The notes under the pieces: generated by a model | Seen by the model: only the letters and a program-made list of their open reading frames with translations | What the model was told of the DNA's origin: nothing | The model's database searches: none | Part shown: in pieces, positions 7,736 to 64,000 of the stretch | Layout of the letters: every line of letters begins with the position of its first letter | Numbering within the stretch: position 1 is the first letter of the stretch | Program-made: the position numbers and the translations under genes | Origin: Lonicera japonica | Lineage: Eukaryota > Streptophyta > Magnoliopsida > Dipsacales > Caprifoliaceae | DNA length: 64,000 nucleotides | Direction of reading: 5' to 3' | NCBI GenBank assembly: GCA_021464415.1 | Contig: CM038466.1 | Span: 51,556,039-51,620,038, forward strand

Positions 7736-10432
7736 TGTAACGCCTCGAATCCCGTTTCAAAATTTTTACTTCCGAGACCCAGTTAATCACGGATGCCGTG
7801 CGCGACAGCGGGTTAAAATATTAAAATCAAAGCCTTTTTAAAATCTTTTTCTTGGATAAAAATTGATCCATTTGAAAAACATGTTTTATAAAATTTCGGC
7901 ATGAGGTGTTCGTTTGAACAACAATTCACCCTGTAAAATTTGAAACAATTTTCAAATAAATAAAATTTTCAATCACAATTCCTCCAATGAGGTCCTAATT
8001 CAAGTTAAAATATTATGCACCATTTTCAATAATTATACATATAATCAACTTGAAGGTCAAATATACAAACAATATTTGAAACTAGTAAAAGACAAATCAT
8101 TTACGGACGACTATACATATCTAAGGTAATCAGAGGTCCTAGACTTCAGAATCGTGCAATCCCCCAAGATGTACCTGCAAAACTGGGTTGAAAAATGGGA
8201 GTGAGCCAAACACGGTCTCAGTGAAAACTATATAGATTGTATATATAAAAATATACGTTGCGAAATAATGCGTGTGAGGTATAGTAATGAAAGCAATTTC
8301 ATTTGTAATAAAAATCATATTATTATATGTCTGCCAATGCTTTTTCATCCCCGAAATATCATAAGATATACACTCAATAAAAATACAATTGAAAACTAGC
8401 TACAAACTTAAAATAGCTATAAACTCATCCATACAGTGAAAGAAACATCATTCAGATACAAATAACCTTTAGTAAGGAATATATATATATAAGAATCCGT
8501 TGGCTAGTTTATACAGCGTGGCATCATAATTGTATCATCTAAAAACCTCTCTCTCTCTCTCGGCAATCATCTCAAAAACTCGCAACTATCCAAACGTCCA
8601 CTAGGTCTGCATTTCGTGGCCTTTCACCTATGCGGCAGCAGGGCCTCTCGTTCTTTTCCGTACACGGTTTCAGGTCTTTCACCGAGGGGTATTTGGTCCT
8701 AACTTACGGCCCCAACCATTAAAGATCAACCTGGGACCGACCATGGACTAGCACAATAACACATATATCTATATATATACAACTGTGTATCAACTCAACC
8801 GATGAACCACTGTATCAAATAACTAATGTAACGGTTCCTATCGAACCCATCAACTAGCCAACAAGAATAAAAGTTATGAAAAGCTATCTTTAGTTCAAAC
8901 ATATAGTTAATACACCCATACTTGTGTAAAATCATAATTATCACTTACAACATCATAAAATATCAGAAATCTTCATACTTGACTCAAAGATGCGTTCAAC
9001 ATGTATATACATCAAGATACAGATATATATATATCTGTGAGAATCCAAAAATGCGACCCCAGGGTCTCAGCCTCTAGTTTGGGAGTCTGAAACATCATAA
9101 AAGATTTCGTTGTTCCATTTGCTTCTATGTGTTGATAATTCATATCAGGTGTCCCTCTATCCTATTTCTAGATGCAAGAGGGTTGATTCAGAGTTGCCAG
9201 TACATTTTACGAGAAAACGGACAAAATAGTTATGTAAGAGAAAAGGCTACAGATAAGCCTTTCTTTACACGTTTGTCTACGAAACCAGGATTCTATAGGG
9301 TTTAGGAACTATATTACGGTTTGGGAAGGTGTTAAGCACCCATTCCGCCCTTTCGGTCTCTAGTAGTTTTATATGTTTATTCTATGTTGAAAAACTTTGA
9401 TGCTTTTACTGATATTCTACTACTTTCTGGAAATAACTAATGAAAACCTAATTTTGGGAAAAACGGGGAAAGGGATGAAAACCTTGTATTCCGTGATCCG
9501 ATGTTTTGGATTTTGTCGAAATCTGATTACTAGTAACGAAAGTTTATCTTATCAATTTTGAAATGAGAGTGATTCGGTATTATTTCCTCAGATAACAATA
9601 TCAATTGTCTCGTTTATTTAATTTAGAAAAGATCGGATCTTATCAGAATTGATTTGATATGAAATTGAACTCTTGAAGAGAGTGTATCAGATACATTACA
9701 GTCTATATGGAAGACATAATATATCTTAATTTAATTCCTAAGTAAGCTTTTTCAGTCCGGGTTTTGAAAACTTGTTTTAGCTGGATGATAAATGGTCTTA
9801 CTTCTTTGGTTTTACAAATGATTTTATCAAGTTGTTTTGTTTGAAAATGATAGAATATCAGTAACTTGACAATAAGTTTATCCAGCTAGAAAGTGGACAG
9901 AACAACAGATAAAAAGAGTCTACAAAACAACTTAAATTTCGAGGATAATGGAAGTAAATGCTTTCGGTTTATGTTGGCCTAAGAAAGCCAGCTCCCTACT
10001 CACTTATAATACTTCCGAAGATAACAAATACGTATATATAGTAAAATTAAATAAGATTTAAATAAATCTAAAATTACTAAATAAAGTACAATAAAACTAG
10101 TATGTAGATATATTATTTGATTACTAGAAGAGACTTTAGTTACCTTCCCGACGATATATATAAGAATGAAAGAGAGAAAATATAATACGGCATAGAAGAC
10201 CTTCGGCGGATATAAGCTTTTATCTTTGAAATATTTCCAACGGTCTGACTCTAGAAGGTGGCACTCTGGGTGCCAAGATTAGATCCGAGCTCTTGCAGAA
10301 ATAAATGCTATTAAAGGTGCTTCCGAAGAAGGCTTAAAGATTAGAAATGTAAGAGAGAAATAAAGATATTCGGTGTTAGAACCATGTCCTTTGTGGTGGG
10401 GGATGGATGCTTAGAACCCATGGGGGTGTTGG

Positions 10433-10670
10433 CCTATTTATGGTACTCGAAAGTGATTGTCGCAGGACATTCCTCCAGAAAGGGCAAGTGTCGCGCGACA
10501 TATACATATGTCGTGCGACAAATATCCGAAGTGATGGTTCTGACAGATTGATGTGTCAGAAAGTGGTTGGTTGGTGGTTGGGATTATCGCACGACATGAC
10601 AAGGTTTGTCGTGCGACATATGGGTTTGTCGTGCGACAAATTGTATTTGCATTGGGTTTGTCATGCGACA
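10433..10670 (-). promoter_or_regulatory. LTR promoter: TATA box with six to seven TGTCGYRCGACA palindromes
   Basis: On the minus strand an ATAAATAGG TATA box (10441-10433) is preceded by copies of the palindrome at 10458 (degenerate), 10489 (perfect), 10509, 10585, 10607, 10627 and 10659. A separate inverted repeat, TCTGACA-N8-TGTCAGA, sits at 10539-10560. The arrangement parallels the LTR promoter at 48442-48589. Confidence 0.6.
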
Positions 10671-10931
10671 AACCCATCTGGTAAGGTGCTCTAGTGTATG
10701 GGTGAGTTCCAGACTCAATGTGAATTCTATGAGAGTTTTTAATATAAAAAATAGACATTTAATTAAAGTTAAACAAGTAATAAACTCAATTAAAATAATA
10801 AACAAATATGCATATAATAAACTCAATTAAAAGAAATGGTCGGATAATAGTGGAAGTAAATGCTTTCGGTTTATGTTGGCCCAAGCAAGCCAACTCCCTA
10901 CTCACTTATAATACTTCGGAGAAAATAAAGA

Positions 10932-11277
<346 letters not shown>

Positions 11278-13493
11278 CTTAAATAAAAGAAAGGGTCAAA
11301 TGATTACCTTCCCGACGATAATATAAATAAGAGAGAAGTAGACAAACCTCCGGCGTTGACAAAGACTGACACTCCAAGTACAAACTTTATACTGAAAAGA
11401 TTCTTATTTTCTAAGAACCTAATAAAATTGACTAGAGCATAATTCTCGACATCTCTAATAAAAGAGTAGGAAAATCTTTTAGTAATAAAAATTGTGGGTT
11501 CAAAGGCTAAAAAAGCTCTTACATGATCCTTCTCATTTGGCCATCCTCAAACTACAAGCCTTAGGCCCTTATTTATAAGGAAACCCAAGGCCTCACTTTT
11601 CACTCCCATCCAATATGGGATAAAAAGTGGGCAAAAACAAGAAAAATGCAGAATAAGCCTAAAAAGGGCCAAACTACCAAAATCAATATTTAAGCTTAAA
11701 AAATTGAAAAATAACCTAGTAATAATATAAGGGTTCTTGTGGGGGTCTCAAATTGAAGTGTGTCTACAATATCAAACTTACTTTTTTAAATATCACATAA
11801 GTTATGTCCTTCAAGGACAACTCATAGCTCACGTAGCCACCAAGGCTATACGTTACAGTAATAACCAAATGGTAAGATATGGTGTCCAAGTCCATGAATA
11901 TATATATGTTCCAACATATATGGTTATGTCTCATATATATATACCGCAGATTAAAAGGTTGTGTATATGTTGTACTTAAACTCACTTCGCCCAATCCGTT
12001 AACTATTAACTTAATAAAGAAAACATCCGTATGGGGAGTCTCATAGAGTGTCATTGCATAGGCTCCAAGCCAGGTATAATATATTTTACAAAATTTAAGT
12101 TCAATATAAACTTTCCCATATGTTTACTGTATTTAGTTTATTCAAAATAAATTTATAAATCTGCCCAGCATAGTTACGGACTGGCAAGTAGTTAAAAAAT
12201 CTCATAAATAAGTGGATAATAATCAAAGTACAACAATAACATCACAAACACAAGTAATTAACTAATTATACCCATATCATACTTTTAATTCTATATATAT
12301 AGGATCTCATATATATATATATATATCAAAGTTACTACTCGCTATTGTACTCCCATAAGTGGGTCGTATGCGAAACATGCTTAAAACTCGCTTGAAATTG
12401 GGGCTTTTGGTACAAACATCATAATCAAGTTATAGGCAATGCAAATCGACTAAATAATCGAAATAAAACAACCCAAACCCCATGAAAATGCTAATTTCAA
12501 AATTCAAGTTAAAAGTTCAAACTTTGTTTTGATTCTTAGCCAATAATATGTAAAACTAAATAAATGAGTTTATATACTATTGTTCCCACCTATTGAGGGT
12601 TAATCCCTCGAAGAATCGTGACAAAATCAAGCCGGGCTGAGCAAACAGCGAGCTTTCCCATTTCAACCATGGAAGAAGGTGGAGAAGATGGAGGAGACGA
12701 TGAATAGTGCTCGGTGGTGGCGGAGAAGGAAGAGCGTATGTTGATACCTCAAATCATTCGCAAAAACCCCCCGAATCACCTCTCCTTTCTCTCTTTATGA
12801 GCTCTCATGAGTTTGTGAAGAAATGAGGAAAAAATGGAGAAGTTACGTATATATATATAAACTGTTGCTGCTTTAATTTTACGGAGTACTGTTCACGCGC
12901 GTGGGTTTGTGGCACTGAACTTTGAACGTCCGTAACTTCTCGCTTGGAAGTCCGATTGAGGTGATCTTTATGTCCACGGAAAGCTTATTTGGAGCTCTAC
13001 AACTTCCTAGAAGGAAGTTTTTCCAAATTCTGGACAGATAATTCTCAAAAATTTGATGAAGTCAGCGCGTTAATGTTACTGAATGAACAACTGATAGCGA
13101 TTGACCTATTTCGCACTAAGTTTCGACCCAGTAGAAGTCAAAATTTACCTTTGGAAAAAACACGAAAGTTGTAGATTGCTTAAAAATCTAAGGTATTTTG
13201 CGAACATAAACTCAATTTGACAAGGAACGAATGAGTAACGCTTCTTCTAAGTTAACCAAAAATTATGAAGTCGAGTAAATCGAAAACTTGCAATTTACAT
13301 TCAAATTTCGACTCGAACCACCCGAAATGATTTACAGTTATTCTAACATGCTTAAATATACTAACGTAGCTCGTCGGAAGCCTTCAAGACATTCCGATCC
13401 TTTCAGAGTAAAATATGACTACCCAAAGTCCATGTTTACCTTACACGCGACTTGTATCGCGATTTCCGATAAATGGAGGCACGGGGTGTTACA

Positions 13494-46956: not shown

Positions 46957-48311
46957 GTAACACTTTGTTCATCCGTTTCATCATAATCACTTTCATTCGT
47001 TCGTCCATTTCACTTTGAGTGGCGAAATCAAGATTTATGGAGGTTCGTAATGTTCTAGCACTTTTTACTAGTCTCATTAGTATACTTACACTCATGTGAG
47101 CAATCATTTTGCAATTTGGGTAGTCCGAATTAAAATCGAGATGTTAATCTCATGTTTTCATTTTACGTAATTTCTTAATTTTAGTTAACTTTAAGGTTTC
47201 GTAACTCCTTCATCTCTTATCCAATTAAGTCCTTGTTTTCATCTATGTCTATATTTTTATGCATTCTACAACTTTTGTGTTTTTACCAAAAGCCAATTCA
47301 CACTCCTAGTTGGTCAAAACAGCATGCGAAGTAGGTCGGTTAACAAAATATGATCGTTTTGTAGTGCTTCGACAGAGCGCCATCTTCGAAGAATTTTGAG
47401 AAATTATTCATCTAGAATTTTGGAAAACTTCCTCTTAGGAAATTGTAGACCTTTGAATTACCTTTTCGTGGACATAAAAATCTTCTCAATCGGAGTTTCG
47501 AGTAAAAAGTTATGGCCAAAATACTAACAGTGCGCCATATTTCACCCATCAGTCAACTGATGGGATAGATCAATCGACTGAGGGGTCCTGAGCACTATTA
47601 AATAGGGAAAAAAATCTCATTTCGTCCCTAACTCATTCACCAACCTAGAGAGCTTCAAGGGGGAGATTAAGGGGCAATTCTTAGGGCTTTTGTGAGGGTG
47701 TGTTTACCCCTAACATAGATTTGAGTAGATTATCATCCGATCATCATCATCATCATCTTCCTCCTAAATTTCCTTCCTCCATTAATGAGGGTTTCAAGCT
47801 ATACTTTGGGGGATTTATTAATTTCTCAGGCTACGGCTCGATCCACCGCTCAAAACCTCAGATTATCGGCTTAATTAGGTGGGAATACTTGTATTCAAAC
47901 TTCTTTTTAAAGTTTATGTGTTGCTTCTCTCTTTTTAAAGAAAAATTGGGCATTTTTTATATGAGCTTGTTGATACACATACATAGGGCTTTGAGTTTAA
48001 GATTTGTGTTTAGTTTTCTTAATTTATACATGTTGTTATAATTTCATGTTATGGTGAAAGAATCCCATCATATGCTAGTATAATACAAGCCCTAGATATT
48101 ATCCGATAGCGCGTATGTACGTATACCCATTTGATGGTTAGATATATCATGTTATAATCCAGGAATAAGGATTTATATAAGAAATTTCATGTTGTTACAT
48201 ATTTTACTCGATTTTGTCTTAAACCCTCATTTATACACTAGTGTGATTGACTAGCACTTGCATACGACTGTAAATAGGTTGGAACGAATTTGATATACGA
48301 AATGGGGTTGT
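46957..48311 (+). mobile_element. LTR-like fragment truncated by the Tat element
   Basis: Starts TGTAACAC and follows the same order of blocks as the minus-strand LTR of 7.7-19.8 kb: TCTACAACTTTTGTGTTTTT, then GGAAAACTTCCTCTTAGGAA, GTGGACATAAAAATC and CAATCGGAGTTTCGAG. It runs directly into the TGTAGACAC start of the next LTR. A 113-codon frame near 47700 lies in its R/U5-like part and is not a gene. Confidence 0.5.
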
Positions 48312-49776
48312 TGTAGACACCCCGATCCGTGACCCCCGCAAGAACCCTAACGACCTTCGAGAACTATTGTTTTTGGAGTTCGGGACCCACCCGAGCACCC
48401 GAAAGGGTTTGTTGACCAGCAAACCTGTTTTTAAGAGGGATTGTCGCACGATATATCAGTATGTCGTGCGACAATCACTCCTACGTCGCGCAACAAACCC
48501 CTCTGACCCCGACCATCAACTCTCTGACACATCAGTCTGTCAGAGACATCACTTCAGCCGTTTGTCGCGCGACATTGGACATAAATAGGCCAACACCCCC
48601 AAGGGTTCAAGAAACAGCAGTTGGGATTTGGAGAATTATTGGCTTATATCTGATTTTCTAGTCTTTCGTCGAGCATTTTCTATTATAATCTTATTTCTGA
48701 AGAAAATTATCGAATCTATTCTCGACACTCGACGTGTCCCGTCTCTGGAATTGCATTCTCGGAAATATCTGAAGAAGGAAAAGATCATTATCGCCAGAGA
48801 TCTCTCTGCCGCATTATATTTTCTTTCTTATTGCTATTATTCTCGTTGGGAAGGTAAAGAAAATCTCTTCTAGTATCTAAATTATATATTTGTGTGCTTG
48901 TTTTACTTCTGTTGTTTTGTCCACGTTTTATTTGAATAAAATTATTGCCAAGTTACAAAGTAGCCTACCGTTTCCAAAACAAAAGACCCTGATAAAACCA
49001 TTTCCAAAATCAGAAGTATAAGTACATTATCATCCGGATAAAATTCTGCTTTCAAAACCCGGACTGATAAGACTTATCTAGAAATTAAAATCAACATATC
49101 CTGTCTTTTCTATAGACCGCGATGTGTCTGATAAAACTCTCCTCAAAGAGTTCTAGTTCCATATTAAATTAGTTCCGATACAAAATCCGAACTTTTACAA
49201 AAGTAATCACAACACGAGAAAACCGTCATTATCTGAGGAAATAATACAGAACACCCTTTTAAAATAAAAAGGTTTTGTCATTTGTATTTACATCTTTTAA
49301 TAATAAAAACATTGGATTTCGGAACACAAAGGTTTTTATCCCTTTCCCCGTTTTTCCCAGAAATTAGGGGTTTTTACTTGGAAAGTAATAGACTGACAGT
49401 AAAAGCATCCAAGTTTTTCAACATAGAATAAACATATAAAAGACCACTAGAGACCGAAAGGGCGGAATGGGTGCTTAACACCTTCCCAAACCGTAATTTA
49501 GTTTCCGAACCCTATAGAATCCTGGTTTCGCAGACAAATGTGTAAAGAAAGGCTTGTTTGTAGCCTTTCCTCTTACACAACCTTTTTGTCCGTTTTCTTG
49601 TAAAACGTATTGGCGACTCTAAACGAACCCCCTTGTATCTAGAAATAGGATAGAAAGACACTCGATATGAATTATCAACACCTATAGAAGCAAATGGAAG
49701 GACGGAATCCGTTCTGACGTTCCAGACGCCCAACGATGGGAGCGAGACCCGGGGGTCGCATTTGCGGATTCTCACA
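48312..49776 (+). repeat. 5' LTR of the Tat element (1465 bp)
   Basis: Runs from TGTAGACACC to GGATTCTCACA. Ends were set by comparison with the minus-strand copy at 9036-11768, which shares both termini and has a clean target duplication. U3 contains the palindrome cluster and TATA box. Confidence 0.85.
48442..48589 (+). promoter_or_regulatory. LTR promoter: palindrome cluster plus TATA box
   Basis: TGTCGCGCGACA-type sites start at 48442 (TGTCGCACGATA), 48462 (TGTCGTGCGACA), 48484 (CGTCGCGCAACA) and 48563 (perfect). A separate inverted repeat TCTGACA-N8-TGTCAGA lies at 48523-48544. The TATA box ATAAATAGG is at 48581, 6 bp after the last palindrome. Sense transcription of the element should start just downstream. 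Confidence 0.65.
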
Positions 49777-49777
49777 G

Positions 49778-49795
49778 TGGCGACTCTGCTAGGGA
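49778..49795 (+). other. Primer binding site, tRNA-Arg type
   Basis: TGGCGACTCTGCTAGGGA, one base after the LTR. It differs by two transitions from TGGCGACTCCGCTGGGGA, the tRNA-Arg-complementary site I recall for Ogre/Tat elements. Confidence 0.7.
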
Positions 49796-50529
49796 CCTAT
49801 TAGAAAACTAGACTCTTATATGTTAACTTTTGTTTATTTGTTGAATATCTGCTTTTACTGCTTTCCCTACTTATGTTAATTGATTGGGAAGAAACCTTTT
49901 TCTAAAAATGGGAGTTTTTCAAAAATATGTAATAAAGAAAATGATATTTGTGAAATCAACCTTTTGAACTTTGCACACACTTTCACAAATCATGCATTGG
50001 TTCTACGAGTGTGAATTTACCCCAAACCCTCGGAAGTATTATAAGTGAGTAGGGAGTTGGCTTGCTTGGGCCAACATAAACCGAAAGCATTTACTTCCAC
50101 TCTCCTTGGCCAAGTACGCCCCCGAGGTATATTGAGTGACGAGAACACTCACGTACCCGGGAAGTATATCAAAAGACTCTTGCACGTACCCGCCCTTGGG
50201 GTATATCGCAAGGTCTCGCCAAATAGGAGGGAGCCTCAAGCCTTAACCGTTCGTACACCTGTGCTGCATATAAATCGAGTCGGCTAAAACACTTGTCAAA
50301 CAGCCGTAAGGGATGTACCACCTTACGGCTTACTTTACAACACCTTTTTAAAAACCCGAGTCTTTCCTCTGCAATTTTTAGTGGTTCTTTTGGCAAAAAT
50401 CGAGTCGCATCGTAGTCTTCCTTCACCTTCGCCACGTGGTTTCGTCTACAGCCGCAAAACAACGACAGACTGGAAAGTTGGGCCAGTCGAGATCATACCG
50501 AAAAACTAGTAAGACCAAACACACCCGAA
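49796..50529 (+). other. Untranslated leader between PBS and gag
   Basis: Non-coding. 50031-50099 (CGGAAGTATTATAAGTGAGT, then CCGAAAGCATTTACTTCC) is also present, inverted, twice in the solo LTR at 9949-10019 and 10851-10919. Between 50100 and 50220, ACGTACCC and GGTATAT phrases recur. Confidence 0.6.
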
Positions 50530-51927
50530 ATGGCCGATGGACGCGAGAATCAAGAGACCGATCAGAGCCTAGCCAAGGCGTCTGCAGTTCAACCAACTTT
50601 AGCCGAGATGCACCGTTTGTTGATGACAGTCAGCATAAATCTAGCAAGCCTCACAAACGAGCACCAGAATACCCGAGTTCGAGTAGAAGAATTATCAGTC
50701 GGACGGGCCGCACCACCGGGGTTTGAACGATTACCACCAAATCGAGATCAGAATCAAGGGCAGTCATCGCAAGTACTTCCCCCAGTTCAAGGAACCAACC
50801 CGCCCCAAACAGGCCCTGTCATGGCCGGTCCTGTTCAGACCGATCCCAACAATCAGAACCAATGGGCCCCGGATTCAGGCCCCACTTACCAACAACAAGA
50901 GCCACCCATCATCTGGCCGCAACCTCAGCAAGGCCTTGATCCCCAATACCAGCCATGGCCACAAGTCCCCACAAGGCCTATTCCACCACTGGCCCCAGTA
51001 GCCCCTCATAATGAGTACCCAGACATCAACCGACTTCGGGCAGTATATGCAGAATCGGTTATAGCTCGGGAACAGCCCGATGAGGTGTCAAGAGAGAGTG
51101 AAGAAATGAAGAAACTGAAGGAGCTGATGAAGGTTCTGCAAAGGGGGATTTCTTTAATAAAAGGGACAGACGAGATCACAGATATGAATGCCTTCTCCCT
51201 CTACCCAGAAGCAAGACTACCTCAGGGATTCAAGCTCCCTTCCATCACCAAATTCACAGGAACCACACCTCCTAAAACTCATCTTCAATCCTACATCAGA
51301 TCCATGCAAGTGTCCGGTTGTGGAGAGCCGGAGTTGGCTCAAGCCTTTCACATGACTCTCACGGGGGCCGCCCTGAGATGGTTTTTCGATTTGGAGAGAC
51401 ACCACACAAAAACTTGGGAAGATATCGTCAAGAGTTCATAACCAAATATGGGTCCAACGAGGATTTGGAAATTACCCGTAAACACTTGGAAATGGCCAAG
51501 TAAGGCGAGAAAGAAAGCTTCAGGGATTTCGTCACACGCTGGAGAGAGATGGCCTCCCAAATGTCCAAATGGCTCGATGAAGAAGAATAGTTGGAGATCA
51601 TACAGAAGAATTTCACTCCAGCTGTATTGAGTTGTATGGGAAAGCATGTGTTCCCACACTTCAGAGCCCTGTTAAGCATGGGGTCTCAAGTAGAGGAAGA
51701 ACTGGCAAAGAAGGCAGAGACCGATACCAAGAAAGCCTCATACACCGGGAGAAAGATAGCCACTCCAGCCGTGAATCAACTAAGCTCATACCCATATCAA
51801 CAAAACCCATTCCAATAGTCACAACAAGCCCCTCCGATGAGTTGGCCTGCACAAGGAGACTCTTCGAGTACCGAGGCCAAGAAAAGGAGAAACTTCTGCA
51901 CCCTTTCCCACTACCCTGGTCAAAAGC
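50530..51927 (+). pseudogene. gag: gag (capsid polyprotein), broken
   Basis: ATG at 50530. The first 200 residues are Gln/Pro-rich with an early helical segment. A retrotransposon gag domain follows (LQSYIRSMQVSG, AQAFHMTLTGAALRWFFDLE, KTWEDI). The frame shifts near 51430 and gag continues as EFITKYGSNEDLEITRKHLE and NFTPAVLSCMGKHVFP. In-frame stops are at 51501-51503, 51588-51590 and 51816-51818, and two further frame changes lie between about 51890 and 51925. Gag packages element RNA in cytoplasmic particles; this copy cannot make a full-length protein. Confidence 0.85.
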
Positions 51928-53923
51928 TTGGAACTACTCCGAAAGGCCGGGCTGATCACTTCACTCAACCCACGCCTTCCACCAAATCCTATTCCCAGCA
52001 CCTGGAGGATGAATGAGAACTGCGCATACCATCAAGCAGCGGGCCATGACACAGAACGCTGCTTGGCTCTTCGCCATCGTATCCAGGATCTCATTGAAGC
52101 CGGAACCATCCCCACACCCGGCGGGCCCAATATTACCAACAATCCCCTTCCTAACCATGCTCCACCTGCGGGGATTAATGCCTTGACCACCAATGAAGAA
52201 GGTTTTGATCTCGTAGGACTCATTCAAGATGACCCAGCCTACAAAGCACCCACCGTGCTGCCAGCAAAGAGTCAAGTTACACCAGGCCTCAATCCGATAA
52301 TCGACCAATGGATGGCTAAAATGAACTTCCTACCCGGGCAGGGGTTAGGAAAGGCTAATCAGGGGATCCCACAACCACTCACAATCAAAACCAATCTCGA
52401 AAAATCTGGGATAAGGTGGACCCAGGAGAAAAAGAAACAACCATGGAAGCCCCGAGGCCTTCCCAAGGAAACAATCTGTATGACAGAGACCTCCCCCAAA
52501 ACTTTCAGTTGGTCGGCGGAATCAAAATCATCGGAAGCCTCAGAGGGGTCAGACCCAGCATCCCTTTGGATACAACAAATTACCCGTTCAGGAGGGGTAT
52601 ATCAGCCAACACCAGTAGATGTCGAGAAAGCACCTCCCCCTAAGGAAGTAGGAGAGGATCGGGTACTGGAACAGTTGAAGAATGCTCAGGCACACATCAC
52701 CATTTGGGGCCTCCTGGTTGCCTCCAAACCTCACAGGACCGCTTTCATCAAACTCCTAGATGAGGCTATCATATCACCAGAATCTACGCTCGAACAACTG
52801 CCCAACATGATAGGATCGCTTACAGTCCAAAAAAGTTTGTCATTTTTAGATGAAGACTTATCCCATTTGGGAAGGAAACACTGTCTGGCCCTCCATATTA
52901 CTGTCCGGACCCGAGGGAAAATCCTTTCACAGGTCCTCATTGACAACGGGTCAACCATAAATGTGTGCCCTTTGAAGACCGCTAAATGTCTGGGTATCTT
53001 AGACTCAGAACTTTCTCCGTCAGCTGTGACCGTTAGAGCCTATGACAACACCAGAAGGGTCGTTCTGGGTTCCCTAAAGCTGGATCTCATGGTCGGTCCG
53101 TCGATCCCGAAAACTTTCCAGCCGACTTTCAAATTATAGACATCCCCTCCAGTTTTAACCTCCTGTTGGGAAGAGCATGGCTACATGACATAGGAGCACT
53201 CCCTTCCTCCTTACACTAAAAGATCAAAATACCACTCGAAGGGAATATAATCACCATCCAAGGAGATCCTGAGAGGACCTTGGCAGATCTGGAATTACCT
53301 ATTTTGGGTATCGGGAGCCAGAGCATACGGCTGGGGGGATTTTCCTACGAGCCTCAAGTACAAGCTCTCACCACCCAGAGAATCAAGTATCTACCCCCTG
53401 ATAATATTCCCGGTCTCAGCACCAAGATCACAAATATGCTGAGAATGATGAAATACTTACCTGGAGCCAGTCTGGGAATGGGACAACCAGGATTACTTCA
53501 GGCCTTAGAACCAGTAACGAGGCATGAAAGAGAAGGGTTGGGGTACCGTCACACCGGAGAAGACAACCAAGAGAAAAGGGGTCGAGGGCATCAGTATCCA
53601 AATTTTAGCTCTCTGAATGGGTCTTTTGTCAAGGAAGGAGAGGACTTCCCCTTTTTCGGCTTTCAGGAGCCTTAGAGAAACAGCGATGGAGATAACCTTC
53701 CAAGATGGGAAATCTTCTATGAAGAGGACCTTTTTCTCAAAGAAAACACTATACACAGCTTCTCTACCAAGTTAACGATCGAGCCAAGGGAAGAAAATTA
53801 AGACAAGGAAGATGAAGAGGAAGAACTGATTGGAGATCTCTTCGACATCATGGCTCTAGGGGATGACGAGCCAAGAGACGACCCTGTACACTTAATACAC
53901 GCTAATCTGGATTACTAAGAAAA
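51928..53923 (+). pseudogene. gag C-terminus, G-patch-like segments and retropepsin, broken
   Basis: Opens with a zinc-binding CAYHQAAGHDTERC motif. Two G-patch-like stretches follow (NFLPGQGLGKANQGI, later KYLPGASLGMGQPGL). Retropepsin lies between them with the active-site run VLIDNGSTINVCP; the catalytic Asp codon is at 52942-52944. Tat proteases characteristically have DNGS here. A frame change occurs near 53115 (DIPSSFNLLLGRAWL continues in the next frame). Stops follow at 53217-53219, 53673-53675 and 53799-53801, and an acidic tail ends at TAA 53916-53918. The last stop may be the natural gag-pro/pol boundary seen in this lineage; the others are decay. Confidence 0.8.
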
Positions 53924-55664
53924 GGGGGGAAATAGTAAAATTGTAAGGGTGAGAGATAAGAGTGAGGGTGAGGCTAGGGAGGAGTCCCTCCTAGATTTAC
54001 TTTTTAAACTTGTACCTGTAAGCACTATTATCAATGAAGAAGACTCTATTTTGCGTTATCCTGTTAATTTTAATTATGTAATTGCTTATATGGAGCTGGA
54101 AAGACTAAACGAACACCCTGAACGGGACAAGCAGCGTATACAGAGCGAGGAAGGAGACACTCTTGTAATTAATCTCGGGACGGAAAAGGAAAGGAAAGAG
54201 GTCCGTATTGGGGCAAGTCTAAATAAGACAGAAAGAGAAGAATTCACACAAACTCTGAATGAGTACGTGGATATCTTCGCCTAGACCTATGCAGATATGC
54301 CAGGTTTGAACAGCCAGATAGTCATGCATGAGATACACACCAAGCCGAAATTTAGGCCCGTCAAGCAAAAGTTAAGAAAGCTTACGCTAGAGTGGTCCCT
54401 GAAAATGAAAGAAGAAGTGATGAAACAACTGAATGTGGGGTTCTTGCGAGTGATCGAATACCCTTCATGGTTAGCCAACATTGTACACGTCCCAAAAGCA
54501 AACGGGAAAGTCCGCATGTGTGTAGATTACCGAGATCTCAATAAAGCTTGCTTAAAAGACGATTTCCCATTGCCCAACATTGATTTAATAGTAGATAACA
54601 CCGCTAACCATGCCTTAAAGTCATTCGTAGACGATTTCGCCGGGTATAACCAGATCAAAATGCACCCGGATCACCAGGAGAAAACAGCATTTAACACGCC
54701 ATGGGGAACTTATTGCTACACCGTTATGCCATTCGGACTGAAGAATGCCGGGGCAACATATCAAAGGGCAGCTACAGCTATTTTCCACGACATAATTCAC
54801 AAAGAAGTAGAAGTATATGTGGACGACATGATAATCAAGTCAAAAGAGAGAGAATGCCATATACCAGCCTTGCGAGCCTTCTTTGACCGCCTCCGCCAGT
54901 ACTAGATGAGACTTAATCCACAGAAATATGTGTTCGGGGTAACCAAAGGAAAGCTCATGGGCTATGTCGTCAGTAAAAAGGGAATCGAGGTAGACCCTAC
55001 CAAAGTTCAAGCTATTCGAGACATGCCCGAACCTTGTACCGAGAAGGAAGTCCAGGGATTTTTGGGTAATTTACAATACATCAGCATGTTCATCTCTCAG
55101 CTTACTCAGACTTGCGAACCTATCTTCAAACTCCTAAGGAAGTCTTCACCAGGAGAATGGGACAATCAGTGCCAGGAGGCTTTTGATAAAATAAAAGACT
55201 ACCTCTCCAAACCCCCAGTGTTAGCCCCACCACAGACCGGACTGCCACTAATTCTGTACCTAACCGTCATCGATTCGACTGTGGGAGCCATGCTAGCCCA
55301 ACATCTGACCGATACACAAAAATTGTCCCCATTTGAGATAAACTACACGCCATTGGAGAAATCATGCACTACTCTCGTCTGGGTAACACAAAAATTACAG
55401 CACTACATGCTGGTTTTCCCGGTCATCCTGGCATCACGAATTGATCCGTTGAAATACCTCTTCGAGAAACCAGCTCTCTCGAACCATATGGCAAAATGGT
55501 TATTCTTGCTCTCCGAATTCGACATCACCTACATGACCCAGAAGGCAGTCAAAGGCAAGATCATAGCTGATTACCTGACCCACAATCCAATATTGGGGGA
55601 CATGCTAGAAGAAGCCGAATTCCCAGACGAAACTATCATGAATGTTGAGATCGATGAAGACTGA
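53924..55664 (+). pseudogene. pol: pol: reverse transcriptase and RNase H, broken
   Basis: Stays in one frame from about 53949. RT motifs appear in order: KVRMCVDYRDLNKA, FVDDFAGYNQIKMHP, TVMPFGLKNAGATYQRA and the catalytic YVDD (54816-54827). The thumb region follows (FGVTKGKLMGYVVSKKGIEV, FLGNLQYISMFI), then the native RNase H (LILYLTVIDSTVGAMLAQ; KLQHYMLVF). Stops interrupt at 54282-54284 (where most relatives have Trp before SYADMPGL), 54903-54905 and 55662-55664. The active-site aspartates remain, but the protein is truncated. Confidence 0.9.
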
Positions 55665-57398
55665 AAATTGTACTTTGACGGGGCCGCCAACCGAAATGGG
55701 AACGGGATAGGCATCCTGTTAGTCTCTCCAGACCAAACCCACTCCCTGGTATCGTATCGTCTAGACTTCTTCTACACCAACAACATGGCCGAGTATGAAG
55801 CCTGCATAATTGGATTGGAGATCGCACTCCAAAGGGGTATAAGGAGAATACAAGTGTACGAAGATTCAGCATTAGTGGTCCACCAAGTTCTGAAGGAATG
55901 GAAGATCAGAGATGAGAAATTAGTCCCTTACCTCGCCCGACTAGAGGATGTCGCAGGAAGGTTTGAGCATTCAGAGTTTTACTATGTCTCCAGGTCACAA
56001 AACAGTTTTGCTGACGCACTAGCAACCCTGGCGTCCATGATCGATATCCCGGAGGCGATGGAAGAAATAACTCTTACAGTACAAAGAAAATCAGGACCAG
56101 CACATTGCATGGCCCTTGAGGTAGAGAATGAAAGGAACGGAGACTTAACCGTTTGGTTTTACGACATCTGGAACCTGTTGAAGAACCATCAGTATCCCGA
56201 GCGAGCAGACAAGAGAACCCGGGTTACACTCAGAAGATTAGCATTAAGATTCATACTTTGCGCCGGGAGGCTATATAAGAGAAACTACGACCGAGCCTAT
56301 CTCCAACGTCTCACTAAAGAAGAGTCTGTCGAAGTGATGGATCAGATACATGGAGGTGACTGTGGACCTCATATGAGCGGCCATACACTTGCCCGCAAAA
56401 TCATCAGGCAAGGATATTACTGGTCTATCCTGCAGAACGACTGCGTTAACCATGTACGCCGTTGTCACAAGTGCCAAATCTACGCTAAATCTCAGAAACT
56501 TCCTCCAAAAGAGTTGTACAATATGACTGCTCCCTGGCCTTTAGCAACTTGGGGAATCGACGTCATTGGGAAGATTTCGCCCAAAGCCAGCAACGGCCAT
56601 GAGTTCATACTAGTGGCCATCGACTACTTCACTAAATGGGTAGAAGCCGAGTCTTTCCAAACCCTTGACGCCAGGAAAGTTGCCCGATTTATCAAGCGAA
56701 ATATCATCTGCCGGTATGGGGTCCCACATGAGATCATCTCAGATAACGGCACTCACTTCGAATGAGAGGTTAATATAGTCATGGAAGAATACGGTATCAC
56801 CCGACACAAGTCTTCGCCGTATAGACCACAAACCAATAGGGCAGTCGGGGCCGCCAACAAAAATTTAAAGAATATCCTAAGCAAGATGACCGACACTTGT
56901 CGGGACTGGCCAGAGAAATTACTGTATGCATTATGGGGATACCGCACCACCGAGAGAGTCTCCACCGGGGCCACCCCATTTTCACTTACATACGGGATGG
57001 AAGCAGTCCTCCCTGTTGAATTAGAGGTCCCCTCTCTTAGAGTAATGCTAGAGAATCAAGTCAATGAACTGGAGTGGGTCCAGGCACGTTATAACGAGCT
57101 GGCCCTACTAAATGAAAAGAGATTGAAAGCCGCGTACCACCACCAAGGGTATCAGAAAAGAATTGCTCGAGCATTTAACCAGAAAGTTAAGACGCGGGGT
57201 ATCAATGAGAACGACATCGTGTTAAAAGAAATTTGAGAGCCAGCCAGAGACCCAAGAGGGAAGTTCGGGCAAAAGTGGACAGGGCCATACATCGTCAAAG
57301 AGATTGATACAGGGGGTGCCGCTATACTCACTGACTTAGACGGACAGTTACTGCATTCACCAGTCAACATAGATCGACTGAAGAAGTATTACCAATAG
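55665..57398 (+). pseudogene. pol: archaeal-type RNase H and integrase, broken
   Basis: Begins with a second RNase H (LYFDGAANRNGNGIG, MAEYEACIIGLE, VYEDSALVVHQ, FADALATLAS), the extra domain that defines Tat elements. The integrase zinc finger follows (GHTLARKII, CVNHVRRCHKCQ), then the core Asp motifs WGIDVIG and SDNGTHF. At the third catalytic position the sequence is AVGAANKN, where relatives have AVEAANKN: codon 56847-56849 is GGG instead of a Glu codon. The C-terminus (KWTGPYIVKEI, LHSPVNIDRLKKYY) ends at TAG 57396-57398 without a chromodomain. Stops at 56763-56765 and 57234-57236. Confidence 0.9.
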
Positions 57399-57566
57399 AG
57401 GTAACATGTATAGATAAGAACTACGTAAACCTGAGCCCCAACTCAAATTTGTGTTTTTTTTGAAAAATCAAAAAGGGGAACGTAGGCAACCTGAGAAGTG
57501 ACTTCAGGCCTGGTTTAAACTTTGTAAAGAAATTTATTTCCCATAAAAACAGTCCCTCGTATATTA

Positions 57567-58845
57567 TTAAGGTGGTTCAGAACACCGAAAGTTACAAAGG
57601 AGATACAGCATACAGAAAAACCTAATCCCTAGGGGTTTGCCAAGCAGGGTCCTCAGTAGCCAAATCAATTCGAGCCTCATCAAGAATCTGGTACGCAAAG
57701 ATAATGTTCTCCTCTGTGGGCTCAGAATCCATGAGCCGAAACCACTCTCCATTTGGAAGGGATCATCAATTAACTCCCCTTCCAAAGACCCCCAACAAGA
57801 ACAGATGATGTCAGCCCGGAGGGGCCTGGCAATACCGAAACGGGCATAGTTGAATTGAAGAGTCAGTCGAGCACGCCACATCCTCTCTACCGATAAAGAA
57901 ACATGCGGGGTCACAAATTTAGACTCAAAGGAGAAGTTGTTCAGACCAAGGGGAATGTCCTGAGGAACGTTGAACTGCTAAAGAAGACGTCTTGGGAGAT
58001 AAAAGGAGGTAAACCAGAGCCCGCGGAGCCGAACATAGTTCTGACCACCTGTACTAAGCACCATCGCCCTCAGCTTCCACCAAGGAATGTTCCACCGGAT
58101 AGCCCAAAAGTTCTCCGAAAAGCACCAAAGAGGGGACGACGAAAAAAGTGCGTCGGGTTGTCAAGCCGCACCCCGTTGAAACCCACCGACCGAAAATGCT
58201 CTAACAGCCACATGTATAGAAAATGAGGGCTTCCCTTGAAGAAGGATGAGGCTCCCCTTTGAAGATCATCTAGGCCATTCAGAGTCTCTGCAAGAACAAT
58301 TGGCACTATAGACTCCCCGTTCCTAGCATGGTAAATCAAACCAGAATAATCGGATCAACACGGGAAGAGCCCGTCACCAGTAACATATCAGAAACAAAAC
58401 AGATCAAGGCCGCCGCAGTACGCCCCACACTATAAGAAGCTCTCTCTTCGTAACGATGAAAGAACCTCACCATTTTATGGAGGTCAAGAAGCCCGTCGAC
58501 AATAAAACCATCACAGGCCGCTTGGGGAATAGCTAACAGGGCAATCAGCATGTCTCGAGGACCGATTTCTTCTATGGGAAAAGTCATCGAAAGACGAACA
58601 TCAGAACGCAACAGCCAGGAGAACTCTTCATAAGTCGGGCAGAGCTCATCTAGCCCGAAACGGAAAAGATGATCCACAGGGCTCCAAAAATACAAAGCAC
58701 CAAGCAGAAAGGAAAAATCTACTGGACGATGGCACCAACCCACTAAAGGGCTAAAAGCACCAAAGTTCAAACCATTCTCAGAAGATATCAGAGCATCTCG
58801 GGTTTCAACATAAGAAAAATAAAAAATTGTGCGATAAGAAGACAT
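57567..58845 (-). pseudogene. Antisense gene A of the Tat element (plant-mobile-domain-like/DUF7745-like), broken
   Basis: The minus-strand ATG at 58845 opens a 169-codon frame (YFWSPVDHLFRFGLDELCPT, YEEFSWLL, RDMLIALLAI). It continues after a frame change near 58337 (SIVPIVLAETLNGLDDL, SPHFLYMWLLEHFR). After another change near 58075 it goes on as WWKLRAMV, QDIPLGLNNFSFESKFVTPH and SVERMWRARL. The pattern (FRFG, CPTYEEF, LPIVLAETL) is that of extra antisense ORFs carried by Tat elements, filed in databases as uncharacterised plant-mobile-like proteins; the DUF7745 name is from memory. Function unknown. It has its own TATA box and palindromes 40-117 bp upstream and ends about 170 bp from the end of pol. 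Confidence 0.65.
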
Positions 58846-58884
58846 TTTGGGAAAGGTGTGGGGATGAAGGAAGGAAGATGGGTG

Positions 58885-58962
58885 TATTTATAGCAAAAAG
58901 AAGGGCCATGTACTTGTTTGTCGCACGACAAACCCATATCCAGGAGGGATTGTCGCGCGACA
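58885..58962 (-). promoter_or_regulatory. Promoter of antisense gene A: two palindromes and TATA box
   Basis: On the minus strand: TGTCGCGCGACA (58962-58951), then TGTCGTGCGACA (58930-58919), then GCTATAAATACACC with its TATA at 58892-58885, and the ATG 40 bp later. Confidence 0.6.
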
Positions 58963-59325
58963 ATCCTATTTTCTATACCCTGTGTTTGCCTTTCTTACAC
59001 GTAAGAGTCATTCTTGCCAAAAGAACCACGTTTGTGTGCACTGTACTTACTTTGTTCTTTTCCAGGAGGCCTAAAAAACTTCCGTATCACACGGTATGAT
59101 TCCTAGCCCCCCTAAATTTTGTGTATAGATGTATATAAGTTATAAATAAACTATTATCACAAATGCAAACAGAAAATAAAAAAATATCATCACTACAAAT
59201 AAGAGTTTTATAAATCCAACAAAACAGTTTCCGAAAAACTAGAGAAAAAACTAAAACAAATGTTTGTCTACCCTTTATAAAACTACATATCTATTTCAAA
59301 CTAACAAAAAGTGCAGGAAAGAAAG
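58963..59325. other. Spacer between antisense genes A and B
   Basis: Non-coding. The left half lies upstream of the gene A palindromes. The right half is AT-rich and would be the 3' end of gene B. No other feature seen. Confidence 0.5.
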
Positions 59326-62300
59326 CTAATCAACTCGAGCGGGCTTTGACACACTCCCACTATCACCCGAGCCCTCCTCGGGAGTACGATCAACCGCTGG
59401 GACCCCCTAAGTAGGAGGGACTACCGCCTGAGAAGGCCCCATCGACTAGACAGGAGCCGTAGGACGGATCACCGAGGACCGAGAGCGCCTAGAAGTCCGA
59501 CTACTACTCCTCCGAGACTCCATCCGGGCATGAGAAGAAGTCAGAGGGTTGCCTGACCGTAAAGAAACATCAATCTCCCTCTGATGTATGCTGGACGGTC
59601 TCGACCAACGTGCTGGAGAAGGTTCCAGTTGTAGAGATGCTGGGCGTGCCAAGCCATCAGATCCGCCACCCGTACACTCACCCGCTATGAAAGACATAAG
59701 ATAAGAGAATCAGCACAGTCGAAATAAATAAATATAGATATAAAAGTATCAAGAAAAGCTGAAGTAGGTACCTCATCGCTAGAGCGACCACGCAAGAAGT
59801 CAAAAGCGTCCTCAGGAAGAGGATACTCAGGAACAATGTATCGACATAAACCGGCACCGACATAAGAGATATCTCTGGGAAGTGGAGGAAGATCTACCGA
59901 AGGAATGGATGAGCCCGCCGAAACATCAACAAAAGTGGACCCACCCTCCTCGCGAATCGGGAACAAGGGAGGCCGAGAAGATGAGCTGCTGAGACCCGGA
60001 TATCGGGCCGAAGGGCCCATGACAGTCGACGGAAGAGGGGTCAGTGTGGCGTAGGTACAAACACTTGGAGGATCCACCATAGCTGTCACTCTCAAAGGTG
60101 GAACCCCGCTAGAAGGAGTGGTCGCAGCAGCAGGAGGGGTCTGCCCAAACTGCTCATAGTCAACCCCAAAGTCCGAAGGCTCCCAGGATCGCTCCAAAAA
60201 ATCCGCTGCACCTCCCTCAGCAGCCTCAAAAATAGCCCCCGGAGATGCTGACGGACCGGTGGGGAACTCAAAACCCTCAGCAGGCTGCTCCTCTCTAAGC
60301 ATAGTCTGAGAAGGCTGCTCTGGAACAGCCGTTGTCCCACCCCCCTCACTGCCCTCGGGTCTATCATCACCTCCCTCGGACCTATCATCGCCTCCCTCAG
60401 CACCAGCAGGGAGTCCCTCTCTCCCTCAGGGTCATCATCGTCGAAATCCAAAATGTTGTCCCTTCGATCGGGGACAGGCGGCAACTGACAGGAACTGTCC
60501 GGGACAAATGAGTCTGTCCTCATATGTAGTTGGGATCACCTCCCAACGCTCGGTACCTCTCATAGAAGACTCGTCCTCGGGTCCCCTTCGGCTCCCTCAT
60601 CAAGTAACGGGCAGCGAAGACATCATAATCTCCCCCCTCGGTGAACGTCTAAAAATCGAGCCCGTCAACCAACGCTTGCACCGTCACCAGATTGATCTCG
60701 CCCGTCCGCCTCATCAGAACTGACAGAAATGAAGGAACTCTAGGCCACTGGGCCGGTGTATGCTGGCGAATAACTCTCTCACCCAAGTAGAAGTGGAGGT
60801 CGTACTCATCCCTGATGAGCCGCCTGGTCCTCGAGGCAGTCAGAGCACGGCCATATCAAAAATGGAGATCCAAATCACCCCAGGGGGCCCACTCAATCTG
60901 AACAAGAACAAATTTTATTTCAGTTATTTGTATTCTATTTTTACTAGTTAATTATTAAAAAGAAAGAATACTAAGATATTTACCTGCTCCTCCAACAGGT
61001 CATGAACGGCAGCAGCTCCGGTCTCCCGAGTCCGGTATACATAGGGAGCCCTGTAGTTCCCCGCAATGAATCGGCGGAGAAAAGAAAACTGATCCTCGTT
61101 CTCGATGAGGAGATCCACTTAGGCACGACCCAGACGGGTATACGCCACGAACCAACTCTGAAGAGGAGACAGAAAGAATATCAGCAACAATAGATAATAA
61201 ATATAAGGGACTGAAACAAAGATAAGGGAACAAAAGTGTATACCTCCCACAGCAAAGAAAAGCCCTTGAGGTTCAGGGCTAGATGGCGAGAAACCTGGTC
61301 CATAGCATCAAACAAGACAGCCAGAATAAAGCCCCCCAGTCATAGTCAAACATAATGCTGAAGTCTCTGAGATAAGGCAACCACCAGAGATGGGCTGTGT
61401 CCCCCCCTCTGGCCTCGAACAGATCATGGAGCGTCAGCAAGAGAAGAACACGGGCATACTGACGTGCCTCCTGACGGGTCATCGGCGCTCCAAAAGCAAC
61501 TAGCTGGGCTCTCTCTGTAGCCAGGCGCGTAACCAGGACAGCCCAAGGAATCGTGTCACCCAAACTCTGTCGCTCAGGAAACCACCCGAGTGCGCCCACG
61601 ATGCCCTCTGCCATCAGACCCAAAGGGACATCAATCTGGATAGGGACCCCCCCTGAAGGGATCCTGGTCAGAGCAAATAGGTCCAGGGGGTCATCGTCAT
61701 CTCCCCCCAACTCTAGTGAAAGGTATGAGTGGTGTCCCATCAGTGACAGGCCAGAGCCGACACCAACACAGCCGCCCTAGATACCCGCTCCGAGAGGGCA
61801 TCAAAGAGAGAACCAAAAGAAGTCGCAAGGAGCAACTCCTAGACAGGGGCCGGTGCCTGTCGCCACTCTAAGGAGATAGTGTTGGGAGAACCCCAACCTT
61901 GGCCGACCCACTACAGACAAAGCGGAAATATAAAAATATGAGAAACCTAAGGGTACTTTGGTGTAATTACGAGAGATATAGGGTTATAAGGGTAAATTAT
62001 GTAATTTTCTAAACCTGAGGGTACTTTGGTGTAATTATGAGAGATATAAGGTTATAAGGGTAAATTATGTAATTTTCCAAACCTGAGGGTACTTTGGTGT
62101 AATTATGAGAGATATAAGGTTATAAGGGTAAATTATGTAATTTTCCAAACCTAAGGGTACTTTTGTGTAATTATGAGAGTTATAGGGTTATAAGGGTAAA
62201 TTATGTAATTTTCCAAACCTAAGGGTACTTTGGTGTAATTATGTGAGATATAGGGTTATAAGGGTAAATTATGTAAATTTTCCAAACATGAGGGTACTTT

Positions 62301-62946
62301 GGTGTAATTATGAGAGATATAGGGTTATAAGGGTAAATTATGTAATTTTCCAAACCTGAGGGTACTTTGGTGTATTACGAGAGATATAGGGTTATAAGGG
62401 TAAATTATGTAATTTTCTAAACCTGAGGGTACCTTGGTGTAATTATGATATAGGGTTGGTTATAAGGGTAAATTATGTAATTTTCCAAAACCTGAGGGTA
62501 CTTAGTGTAGTTATGAGAGTTATGGAGTCATGAGGGTACATTATGTAGTTTTCTAAAACCTAAAAGGTATCACAGGTAAAAGTATGTGTTCGCTAAAATC
62601 GGACGTTATTTCTAGGCAGACATGCATACTAACATTGTTTAAAATACATGCAAGAAACGACATAAATAAATACACGAAGGAAAGGAATTCCCGGAACATA
62701 CCAGAGACCGTCGACGGATCTCATGAGAAACAAGCTCCATCAAGAGCCACGAACATCCGGGACTAAAGCAGCCCGGGTAACGTCTCGGTAGACCACCGCC
62801 CGACCGCGGTCCACCCTATCCTCACCAATACCAGTCGAGGTCCGTCCAGTCGTCATGATGAGGGCTGCACCGGATAACTCCCTGAGCATCGGTAAAAGTG
62901 ACCTCCTCTGGTCACCCTCCAGTCTATCGGGCTGAGCAGGGTCCAT
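59326..62946 (-). pseudogene. Antisense gene B of the Tat element: spliced plant mobile domain protein, decayed
   Basis: Exons are inferred from frames and GT-AG sites on the minus strand: 62946-62702 (MDPAQPDRLEGDQRR), 61910-61244, 61157-60984, 60897-59772 and about 59684-59326. Junction reading is coherent, for example LLWE joined to SWFVAYTRLGRA across 61243-61158, and HDLLEEQ joined to IEWAPWGDLD across 60983-60898. Plant-mobile-domain hallmarks are THTFHLSWGEMTMTP (about 61740), ARQYARVLLLLTLHDLF, LWWLPYLRDF and YDWG (about 61340), and FYLGERVIRQHTPAQWPRVP (about 60770). The tail is acidic then Ser/Arg-rich and probably disordered. Several in-frame stops and at least two frameshifts (near 61335 and in 60.3-60.5 kb) show decay. 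Plant mobile domains occur in TE proteins and in host silencing factors MAIN/MAIL1. Confidence 0.7.
61943..62570. repeat. Tandem array, 68-bp period, nine copies
   Basis: AAACCTRAGGGTACTTTGGT begins copies at 61943, 62011, 62079, 62147, 62215, 62284, 62352, 62419 and 62488, and a partial copy at 62556. Spacing is 67-69 bp. It lies within the predicted first intron of antisense gene B (62701-61911). Variable tandem arrays in the 3' region are known in Tat/Ogre elements and can seed satellites. Confidence 0.95.
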
Positions 62947-63080
62947 CTGTGTATAGGGAGTAGTGAGAAAGTCAGAAAATCAGAAAAGCGGCAGGGCTTC
63001 CGCGCTTGAGAGAAGAGAGAAAGAGAGCTAGAGAGAGAAAGAAAAATGAGAGAATGAGGTGAATGAGCTCAGCAAGGGAC

Positions 63081-63163
63081 TTATATAATGAATCAGTTTG
63101 TCGCACAACAAATGGGCTCATTGTCGCGCGACAAAGAGCCTTGCACCGAAATGTCGCGCGACA
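63081..63163 (-). promoter_or_regulatory. Promoter of antisense gene B: three palindromes and TATA box
   Basis: On the minus strand: TGTCGCGCGACA (63163-63152), again perfect (63133-63122), then TGTTGTGCGACA (63110-63099). A CATTATATAAG TATA box follows at about 63088-63081, and the ATG at 62946 is about 135 bp further on. Confidence 0.6.
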
Positions 63164-64000
63164 TATTGGTCCCCTCCCTGATTTTTTGACCTTTGTCTCA
63201 TTTTATCTCTTGCAGGGGTACTTCAGAGAGACAGTTTTTGAAAAAACTTGCTAAATACCGCACACCCAGGATGAAAATTTCGAGGAAAGGACTTCCAAAT
63301 CATCTCTCCGAAAAATGCAAGGACGAAATACAACGGCTAAAAGTAATCTCTGATCTCCCAAAAGGACCGAGACGATCAATGAGAAAAGCAAAATATCAAG
63401 ATGGGACGGGAATAGAAAAAATTGAAAGAGTAGAAAAGAGAAAGAACCCGCATGAGCACCCAAAGCGAGCGAGAGAAACAGAAATGCAGAGTGACAGGGA
63501 GAGCCACACCAAAAGTGACAGCCAGGCCAAAACCGGCTCAGGGCTTCGTTTTGGGTGAGTAACGCTCCTGATAACGATAAAGGGACAAAAAATACTCCTG
63601 ATAAAAAACAGAGAAGGCCAGGAAAAGTCTTTCCCAAAAGAGGGAAGAAATAAGGGCATCGAAAAACAGAAAACGATGCGGGCCCACCAAAAGAGAAAAG
63701 AGATCAGAGATTGAACTTTCAAACAAATTTTCTTTTCAGCATGGCACAGAAGAGATGGTTTGGAAAACCTCAAATCATCACTCTGCGGAGAGAAAAAGAA
63801 ATTCGAAAACTGCCTTCTGAGAGAAGTATCCTCACTCGGGGAAAACATGAGAGTAAAGTTCAGAAAGATACAGGAAAACGGACATTCCAGATAAAGATTA
63901 GACCCCGAGAAGCTCTCTTTTTTACCCTCATTAAATTTCTCTGTCTCACTCTAGCAGTCTAAGAGAGACAACAAGCGAATTCACCAGATTACAGCACAAG
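63164..64000. other. Tat element 3' region, no gene recognised
   Basis: Purine-rich on the + strand (GA-rich). Frames of 83-150 codons on both strands are compositional and show no family signature. CTCCTGATAA occurs twice (63566 and 63592). The 3' LTR is not reached. Confidence 0.45.

Follow-up and report, generated by a model that had tools for sequence, protein, structure and literature searches.

What controls a retrotransposon in which one and the same palindrome stands before three promoters, one of them sense and two antisense? The question is raised by a stretch of 64,000 nucleotides of Lonicera japonica (contig CM038466.1, positions 51,556,039 to 51,620,038; hereafter the window), drawn from an 886-Mb host assembly over which all genome-wide counts given below were made. 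The window contains one broken copy of a large and abundant Tat-type long terminal repeat (LTR) retrotransposon, with a promoter in the LTR and two antisense genes, A and B, situated between pol and the 3′ LTR and both broken in this copy. A preliminary description of the locus had proposed that the palindrome serves a common regulator of the three promoters. We found that three diverged families of the same genome lack this palindrome and that each has a dyad of its own across the promoters of its LTR and of genes A and B, a pattern that points to a candidate regulator encoded by the element itself.

With up to two mismatches, TGTCGCGCGACA occurs at 16 sites in the window, versus 0.35 expected and a maximum of 3 in 100 shuffles, and no such site lies outside four modules: seven sites in a related solo LTR at 10.4-10.7 kb, four in the 5′ LTR of the element at 48.4-48.6 kb, two before gene A, and three before gene B. 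This agrees with the preliminary description both in the copy number at each of the three promoters and in the confinement of the remaining sites to the 10.4-10.7-kb LTR. Its statement that the nearest copy lies 6 to 26 bp upstream of a TATA box is likewise reproduced by the coordinates, which give 6 bp in the 5′ LTR, 16 bp in the solo LTR (for a site with two mismatches), 26 bp for gene A, and 11 bp for gene B. The 6-bp gap is atypical; in the 3′ LTR, the last exact palindrome lies 16 bp ahead of ATAAATA, the usual LTR distance. The stretch CATAAATAGGCCAACACCCCC of the LTR TATA region is also present in the solo LTR, and five other copies of this family, designated family 1 below, have the gene A TATA box at −46 or −47 relative to the ATG. 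When inverted TGTCG/CGACA pairs with spacers of 0 to 20 bp were allowed, the spacer was exactly 2 bp in 10 of 10 cases, and the sites extend into longer dyads, with 37 of 80 flanking positions symmetric versus 19.5 expected. The helical phasing of neighboring palindromes is suggestive (R 0.80, P 0.0016, 10 short spacings) and is not significant without the homologous second LTR (P 0.08). After masking of the palindromes, the LTR, A, and B modules have no clear mutual similarity (P 0.04 for LTR-A and above 0.2 for the others), the two LTRs excepted, and on this comparison we rejected an origin of the three modules as copies of one duplicated stretch in family 1.

Across the host genome, exact TGTCGYRCGACA sites number 39,282 versus 96 for the reversed control, and perfect palindromes number 29,561 versus 1, while pairs with spacers of 3 to 12 bp show no enrichment (2006 versus 2085). 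To sample placement, we took twenty 10-kb stretches at regular positions on three contigs (200 kb), in which all 10 exact sites, distributed over 3 stretches, fall within family-1 LTRs or a gene B promoter. In keeping with the preliminary description, the motif is not evenly scattered in these stretches, and it is present in other members of the family, among them copies whose gene A frame is open. The palindrome occurs 3 to 33 bp ahead of ATAAATA 2796 and 2806 times on the two strands (5,602, versus 2 and 3 in the control) and ahead of TATATAA 578 and 602 times (1,180, versus 1 and 2). The distance to the TATA box is nearly fixed for each promoter type among the matches listed (100 for ATAAATA and 100 for TATATAA, all from contig C1). 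Of the 100 gene-B-type matches, 96 stand 11 bp from TATATAA, despite 40 different spacers with a mean pairwise identity of 0.53. For ATAAATA, the distance is 16 bp in 69 of the 76 LTR-like matches and 27 bp in 16 of the 22 gene-A-like ones, and the last 2 of the 100 have a 9-bp gap. All five scored gene A copies on contig C1 below 17.55 Mb have a module directly upstream in the orientation of gene A and LTR modules in the opposite orientation on either side; the gene B module is also present for four of the five among the matches listed.

The palindromes are conserved beyond their surroundings. In a MAFFT alignment of six family-1 gene A promoters, with palindromes defined on one row and gaps counted as differences, pairwise identity is 97.2% (350/360) in palindrome columns versus 58.7% (770/1312) elsewhere up to the TATA box. 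Across the genome, 9,721 sites have an altered central CpG, versus 2,496 and 2,589 for the two outer CpGs, as if the TGTCG arms were under constraint; these counts come from related copies and not from independent events.

Starting from P0015, a gene A relative taken from a public protein set, we reached diverged families of gene A within this genome and assigned them from protein and promoter sequence and not from a tree. Among 20 fetched gene A promoters, the family-1 palindrome is present in 5 of 5 from family 1 and in none of the 15 others. Thirteen gene A promoters of family 2 instead contain GGGGACAAC repeats, and one family-2 element has GTTGTCCCCGCGACAAC and GTTGTCCCCACGACAAC ahead of CTATAAATAG in its LTR U3 and three copies of GGGGACAACTRG in its gene B promoter. 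All 23 family-2 windows (13 for gene A, 4 for the LTR, and 6 for gene B) contain GTTGTCCCC, and none has the family-1 motif; conversely, family-1 windows have the family-1 motif in 9 of 10 cases and GTTGTCCCC in none, the tenth (L005 gene B) being a misplaced window whose promoter, when read directly, has three palindromes. The four family-2 LTR windows come from six downstream stretches, of which L048 has three LTR sites with the TATA box past the stretch and L051 has no LTR site within it; the family-2 LTR of L055 is reversed and may belong to another copy. The 17-bp LTR form of family 2 occurs 175 times in the host genome versus 0 for its reverse. Inside the family-2 element L048 (positions 838-1085), between the promoters of its genes A and B, lies a family-1 LTR that has nine palindromes, one of them mismatched.

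Family 3 has TTGTC-CGCG-GACAA, its variants, or its half-sites: TTGTCCGCGGACAA or a variant in the gene A promoters (n = 2), TGTCCRCGGACA in the LTR, and TTGTCCGC half-sites upstream of the antisense TATA box before gene B (L052). The dyad of family 4 is CCATTTGTC-WTGKG-GACARATGG, with TGTCTTGTGGACA common to the gene A and gene B promoters. The family-4 LTR dyad was predicted in writing beforehand; its arms and position were as predicted, and its core differed at 2 of 5 bases. For one element per family (n = 4), we then compared the 150 bp ahead of each TATA box, summing the best matches within families over all relabelings; the true family labels are the unique best of 576 (228 versus a mean of 156, sd 17, with a shuffled background of 8.6 per pair). 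Because the four elements were picked after their motifs had been seen, the comparison is closer to a description than to a blind test. In 11 of the 12 rows, a promoter scores highest against its own family.

The enrichment, the near-fixed TATA spacing, the conservation of the footprints, and the different shared motif in each of four families strongly support the common regulator of three promoters that the preliminary description had proposed. Its further suggestion, that a protein encoded by the antisense genes binds the palindrome, is of a different order; here, the covariation would favor a factor encoded by the element. The motif differs at all three promoters together, family by family, as would be expected of a trans-acting regulator in co-evolution with its sites, and one encoded by the element is favored; with two antisense genes under the same motif, the element would be its obvious source. 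In the mechanism that we propose, the element would operate three promoters, those of the LTR, the DUF7745-like gene A, and the PMD-like gene B, and one antisense protein, alone or with the other, would bind a dyad of TTGTC/GACAA half-sites just upstream of all three TATA boxes and so control them as a set. The effect would most likely be activation or de-silencing, giving a positive loop, and within each family the specificity of the protein and its target dyad would have changed together, such that dyads differ between families and match within them. That the binder is encoded by the element, which of its proteins makes the contact, and that the sign is positive are points that we infer, and we judge a binder that is encoded by the element and acts positively or by de-silencing to be somewhat probable on the sequence patterns described above.

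Apart from the choice of elements for the relabeling, several observations weigh against this proposal. We recognized no DNA-binding domain in A or B, for which Pfam returned DUF7745, PMD, and a few weaker, unrelated matches, and structure predictions for gene A pieces were too poor for use (mean predicted local distance difference test scores of 38 and 51). Family 3 is the least regular: one of its two gene A promoters (L030) is without the family-3 12-mer and has only the variant TGTCTGTAGACA, the motif array of L047 is not upstream of the nearest antisense TATA box, the 12-mer is weakly enriched genome-wide (481 versus 286), and in the relabeling its gene A promoter scores slightly higher against gene B of family 4 than against its own family (16 versus 15). 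The A and B promoters of families 2 and 4 are alike over about 50 bp, to which local duplication may have contributed. Pressed further, this likeness would suggest that the arrays spread within the element by duplication or gene conversion and were kept by chance, with no co-evolving regulator at all. We hold this to be very improbable, since in family 1 nothing is clearly common to the promoters beyond the palindromes, which are kept while their surroundings diverge, since the TATA spacing is kept over the 40 different spacers, and since the longer spacers are not enriched.

The TTGTC arms common to all four dyads also weigh against a factor of the element's own, as one host protein family with loose core preferences could possibly fit them. 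LTRs commonly use host factors, and the TGTC core recalls the TGTCNN sites of auxin response factors (ARFs), here in inverted pairs. A host transcription factor family parasitized by the element has its best support in the shared arms. Its best counter is that the core between the arms is specific to each family and yet alike at the three promoters of that family, which a single host factor does not predict; moreover, all 10 sampled sites fall inside the element family, and the 4-5-bp spacing is unlike the one that we take to be usual in ARF inverted repeats, on which a literature search found nothing. A host factor thus strikes us as unlikely, if credible. If the binder is encoded by the element, it could alternatively be a repressor, limiting copy number through autoregulation from beside all three TATA boxes, including its own, and the near-fixed sites 11-27 bp upstream of the TATA boxes of the LTR and the antisense genes suit steric repression as well as activation. 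Thousands of sites would, however, titrate a repressor, and VANC, the nearest system in logic, removes silencing (PMC5735166); we regard repression as quite improbable. The element-encoded activating or de-silencing protein accordingly remains our preferred candidate, and its action might, by analogy, be a VANC-like de-silencing by an antisense protein, as the preliminary description had suggested.

Table 1. Features of the element and of the related solo LTR, in window coordinates
Feature	Position	Strand	Remarks
Related solo LTR	9036..11768	-	5-bp duplication ATATC on both sides
Promoter of solo LTR	10435-10441, 10458-10670		TATA box 10435-10441; seven palindromes 10458-10670
Target site duplication GTTGT (5 bp)	48307-48311		Second copy after 3′ LTR
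5′ LTR	48312..49778	+	TGTAGACA...CTCACA
Four U3 palindromes of 5′ LTR	48442-48453, 48462-48473, 48484-48495, 48563-48574		
LTR TATA box CATAAATA	48580..48587	+	
gag region open reading frames	50530..53139	+	50530-51441; 52009-53139 with G-patch (Pfam)
pol	54297..57236	+	Reverse transcriptase, RNase H, second RNase H (RVT_3), integrase; several open reading frames (Pfam)
Gene A	58336..58845	-	DUF7745-like; 169-aa open reading frame here
Gene A TATA box TATAAATA	58885..58892	-	
Two gene A promoter palindromes	58919-58930, 58951-58962		
Gene B	59685..62946	-	PMD-like, frame broken; PMD piece 61279-61740; first exon with ATG near 62946
68-bp tandem repeat array	61898..62557		Between first exon and PMD part of gene B
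Gene B TATA box TATATAA	63081..63087	-	
Three gene B promoter palindromes	63099-63110, 63122-63133, 63152-63163		
3′ LTR	64786-66326		Past right window edge; fetched separately

Beyond the broken copy of Table 1, five other copies of gene A were translated; the open reading frame (ORF) has 416-421 aa in L056, L057, L059, and L060 and 212 aa in L058. Its matches to DUF7745 (PF24924) all lie below the cut-off: a family-2 copy gives an E value of 9e-6 at 25.4 bits, with the cut-off at 26, and two family-1 copies give 0.03 and 0.026. Of 3109 candidates, 150 copies were scored, the window copy among them, and in 147 the matched stretch is free of stops; the ratio of nonsynonymous to synonymous divergence (dN/dS) is 0.06-0.10 in the three pairs formed by three family-1 copies, at a dS of 0.26-0.70. 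Because of this low ratio and the near absence of stops, gene A looks like a working protein gene. Gene B is PMD-like (PF10536) by a match in one family-1 copy in the host genome (E value of 0.0013) and by matches in two of four gene B homologs (9e-7 for P0006 and 3e-6), each below the cut-off. The 68-bp array within it is apparently intronic; the copies of families 2 and 3 that we read have different arrays, between gene B and the LTR. Descent of genes A and B from one homologous family was also considered and dropped, an hhalign comparison of two shallow alignments having found nothing. Scans of viral contigs with the reverse transcriptase and gene A and of genome contigs with gene A retrieved no relative; a single palindrome-pair match was seen in viral contig L001.

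The element is a single copy that runs from position 48312 to past the right edge of the window, with GTTGT flanking both ends. Its two LTRs differ at 55 of 1463 aligned sites (Kimura two-parameter distance, 0.039), and at a substitution rate of about 1.3e-8 per site and year the insertion would be roughly 1.5 million years old. Directly after the 5′ LTR stands GTGGCGACTCTGCTAGGGAC, which we take to match a tRNA, a tRNA-Arg primer binding site being a mark of Ogre elements. The second RNase H (RVT_3, E value of 5.4e-17) lies in the ORF at 55785-56765, after the RT_RNaseH ORF and before the integrase zinc-binding and core matches. Because this second, archaeal-type RNase H sits between RNase H and integrase, the domain order by which angiosperm Tat elements are described in PMC6317226, the element is of the Tat type, and it is probably Ogre-like. 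Scans of pieces of genes A and B at E values up to 0.01 or up to 10, HMMER filters being prone to drop weak matches, gave no match to TRP28 (PF04195), the antisense protein that marks Retand elements, and a TRP28 identity of the antisense genes was rejected on this account.

Several other features of the window were recorded in passing. The solo LTR contains, by eye, two copies (near 9944-10020 and 10850-10930) of a leader stretch that in the full element follows the primer binding site at about 50030-50100. Positions 63413-63570, which lie between the promoter of gene B and the 3′ LTR, are about 73% identical to L046:3414-3577 and L047:1665-1849, in surroundings that align poorly between families, and no reading frame common to the three is evident by eye. 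A host GRAS-domain gene, presumably NSP2-like, occupies 31641-33074 as a single open frame of 477 aa. Long direct repeats (7728-8840/16767-17880 and 11769-13385/18074-19684, about 9.0 and 6.3 kb apart and 85-97% identical) are unrelated to the promoter finding.

Parts of this picture have precedents, which we compare here. Antisense genes between pol and the 3′ LTR, with tandem repeats there in many elements, are also found in Retand, Grande, and RIRE2 (PMC11963269, PMC7264820), where gene23 of Grande has an upstream promoter and a regulatory role of the antisense ORFs has been proposed. Retand differs in that its antisense protein is mostly TRP28, and the text of these papers that we consulted describes no motif shared by the LTR and the antisense genes in any of the three. 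Ogre elements share with the present one the second RNase H between RNase H and integrase, a PMD or PMD-like extra ORF, the large size, and the tandem repeats that occur in many non-chromovirus elements (PMC6317226); the PMD ORF was present in 57% of the Ogre elements surveyed and is thus not universal, and neither a DUF7745-like second antisense gene nor shared promoter dyads are mentioned in the text of that survey that we consulted. The host PMD proteins MAIN and MAIL1 are genetically linked to a short promoter motif (DOWN) of the genes that they keep on (PMC7156037, PMC9899485). They differ in being host proteins for which direct binding is not shown, and the motif of the MORC1 promoter, CATGCAGTTT, is unlike the dyads described here; we rejected an identity of the palindrome with the DOWN motif on this difference in sequence.

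The closest comparison is with the VANC proteins, anti-silencing factors of the VANDAL (Mutator-like) DNA transposons of Arabidopsis, for which binding and an effect on methylation have been shown (PMC5735166). Their targets are short motifs repeated in the noncoding DNA of the element and differing between related families, and just such family-specific repeats were found here. The differences are that VANC is encoded by a DNA transposon, whereas the present element, by its LTRs, reverse transcriptase, and integrase, belongs to the LTR retrotransposons and has two antisense genes and dyads at a near-fixed distance from the TATA box. We also observed the VANC6 motif AGTTGTCC (PMC5735166) inside several LTR and gene B sites of family 2 (L046, L048, L049, L050, L051, and L055), an overlap that may be due to chance.

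What was already known, then, is the antisense ORFs, the gene23 promoter of Grande, the guess at a regulatory role, PMD in Ogre, and the family-specific motifs of VANC. In the open-license literature searched, we recognized no report of a motif common to LTR and antisense promoters. The function of the extra ORFs has been questioned (PMC6317226) and their part in regulation merely proposed (PMC7264820, PMC11963269), and the family-specific dyads offer a concrete candidate target for the proteins of each family. We regard the chances as evenly balanced that Ogre/Tat-type elements in general carry a full self-made circuit, in which antisense PMD/DUF7745 proteins would bind DNA sequence-specifically and, by way of a single dyad, switch both the LTR and their own genes, with binder and dyad co-evolving in each family. 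If so, the conserved antisense ORFs would have a function, each family would hold a private switch, and studies of specificity could draw on matched protein-motif pairs from the four families. Sequence-specific self-regulation would then extend from DNA transposons to large and abundant plant retrotransposons, and the circuit would be their counterpart to the VANC system.

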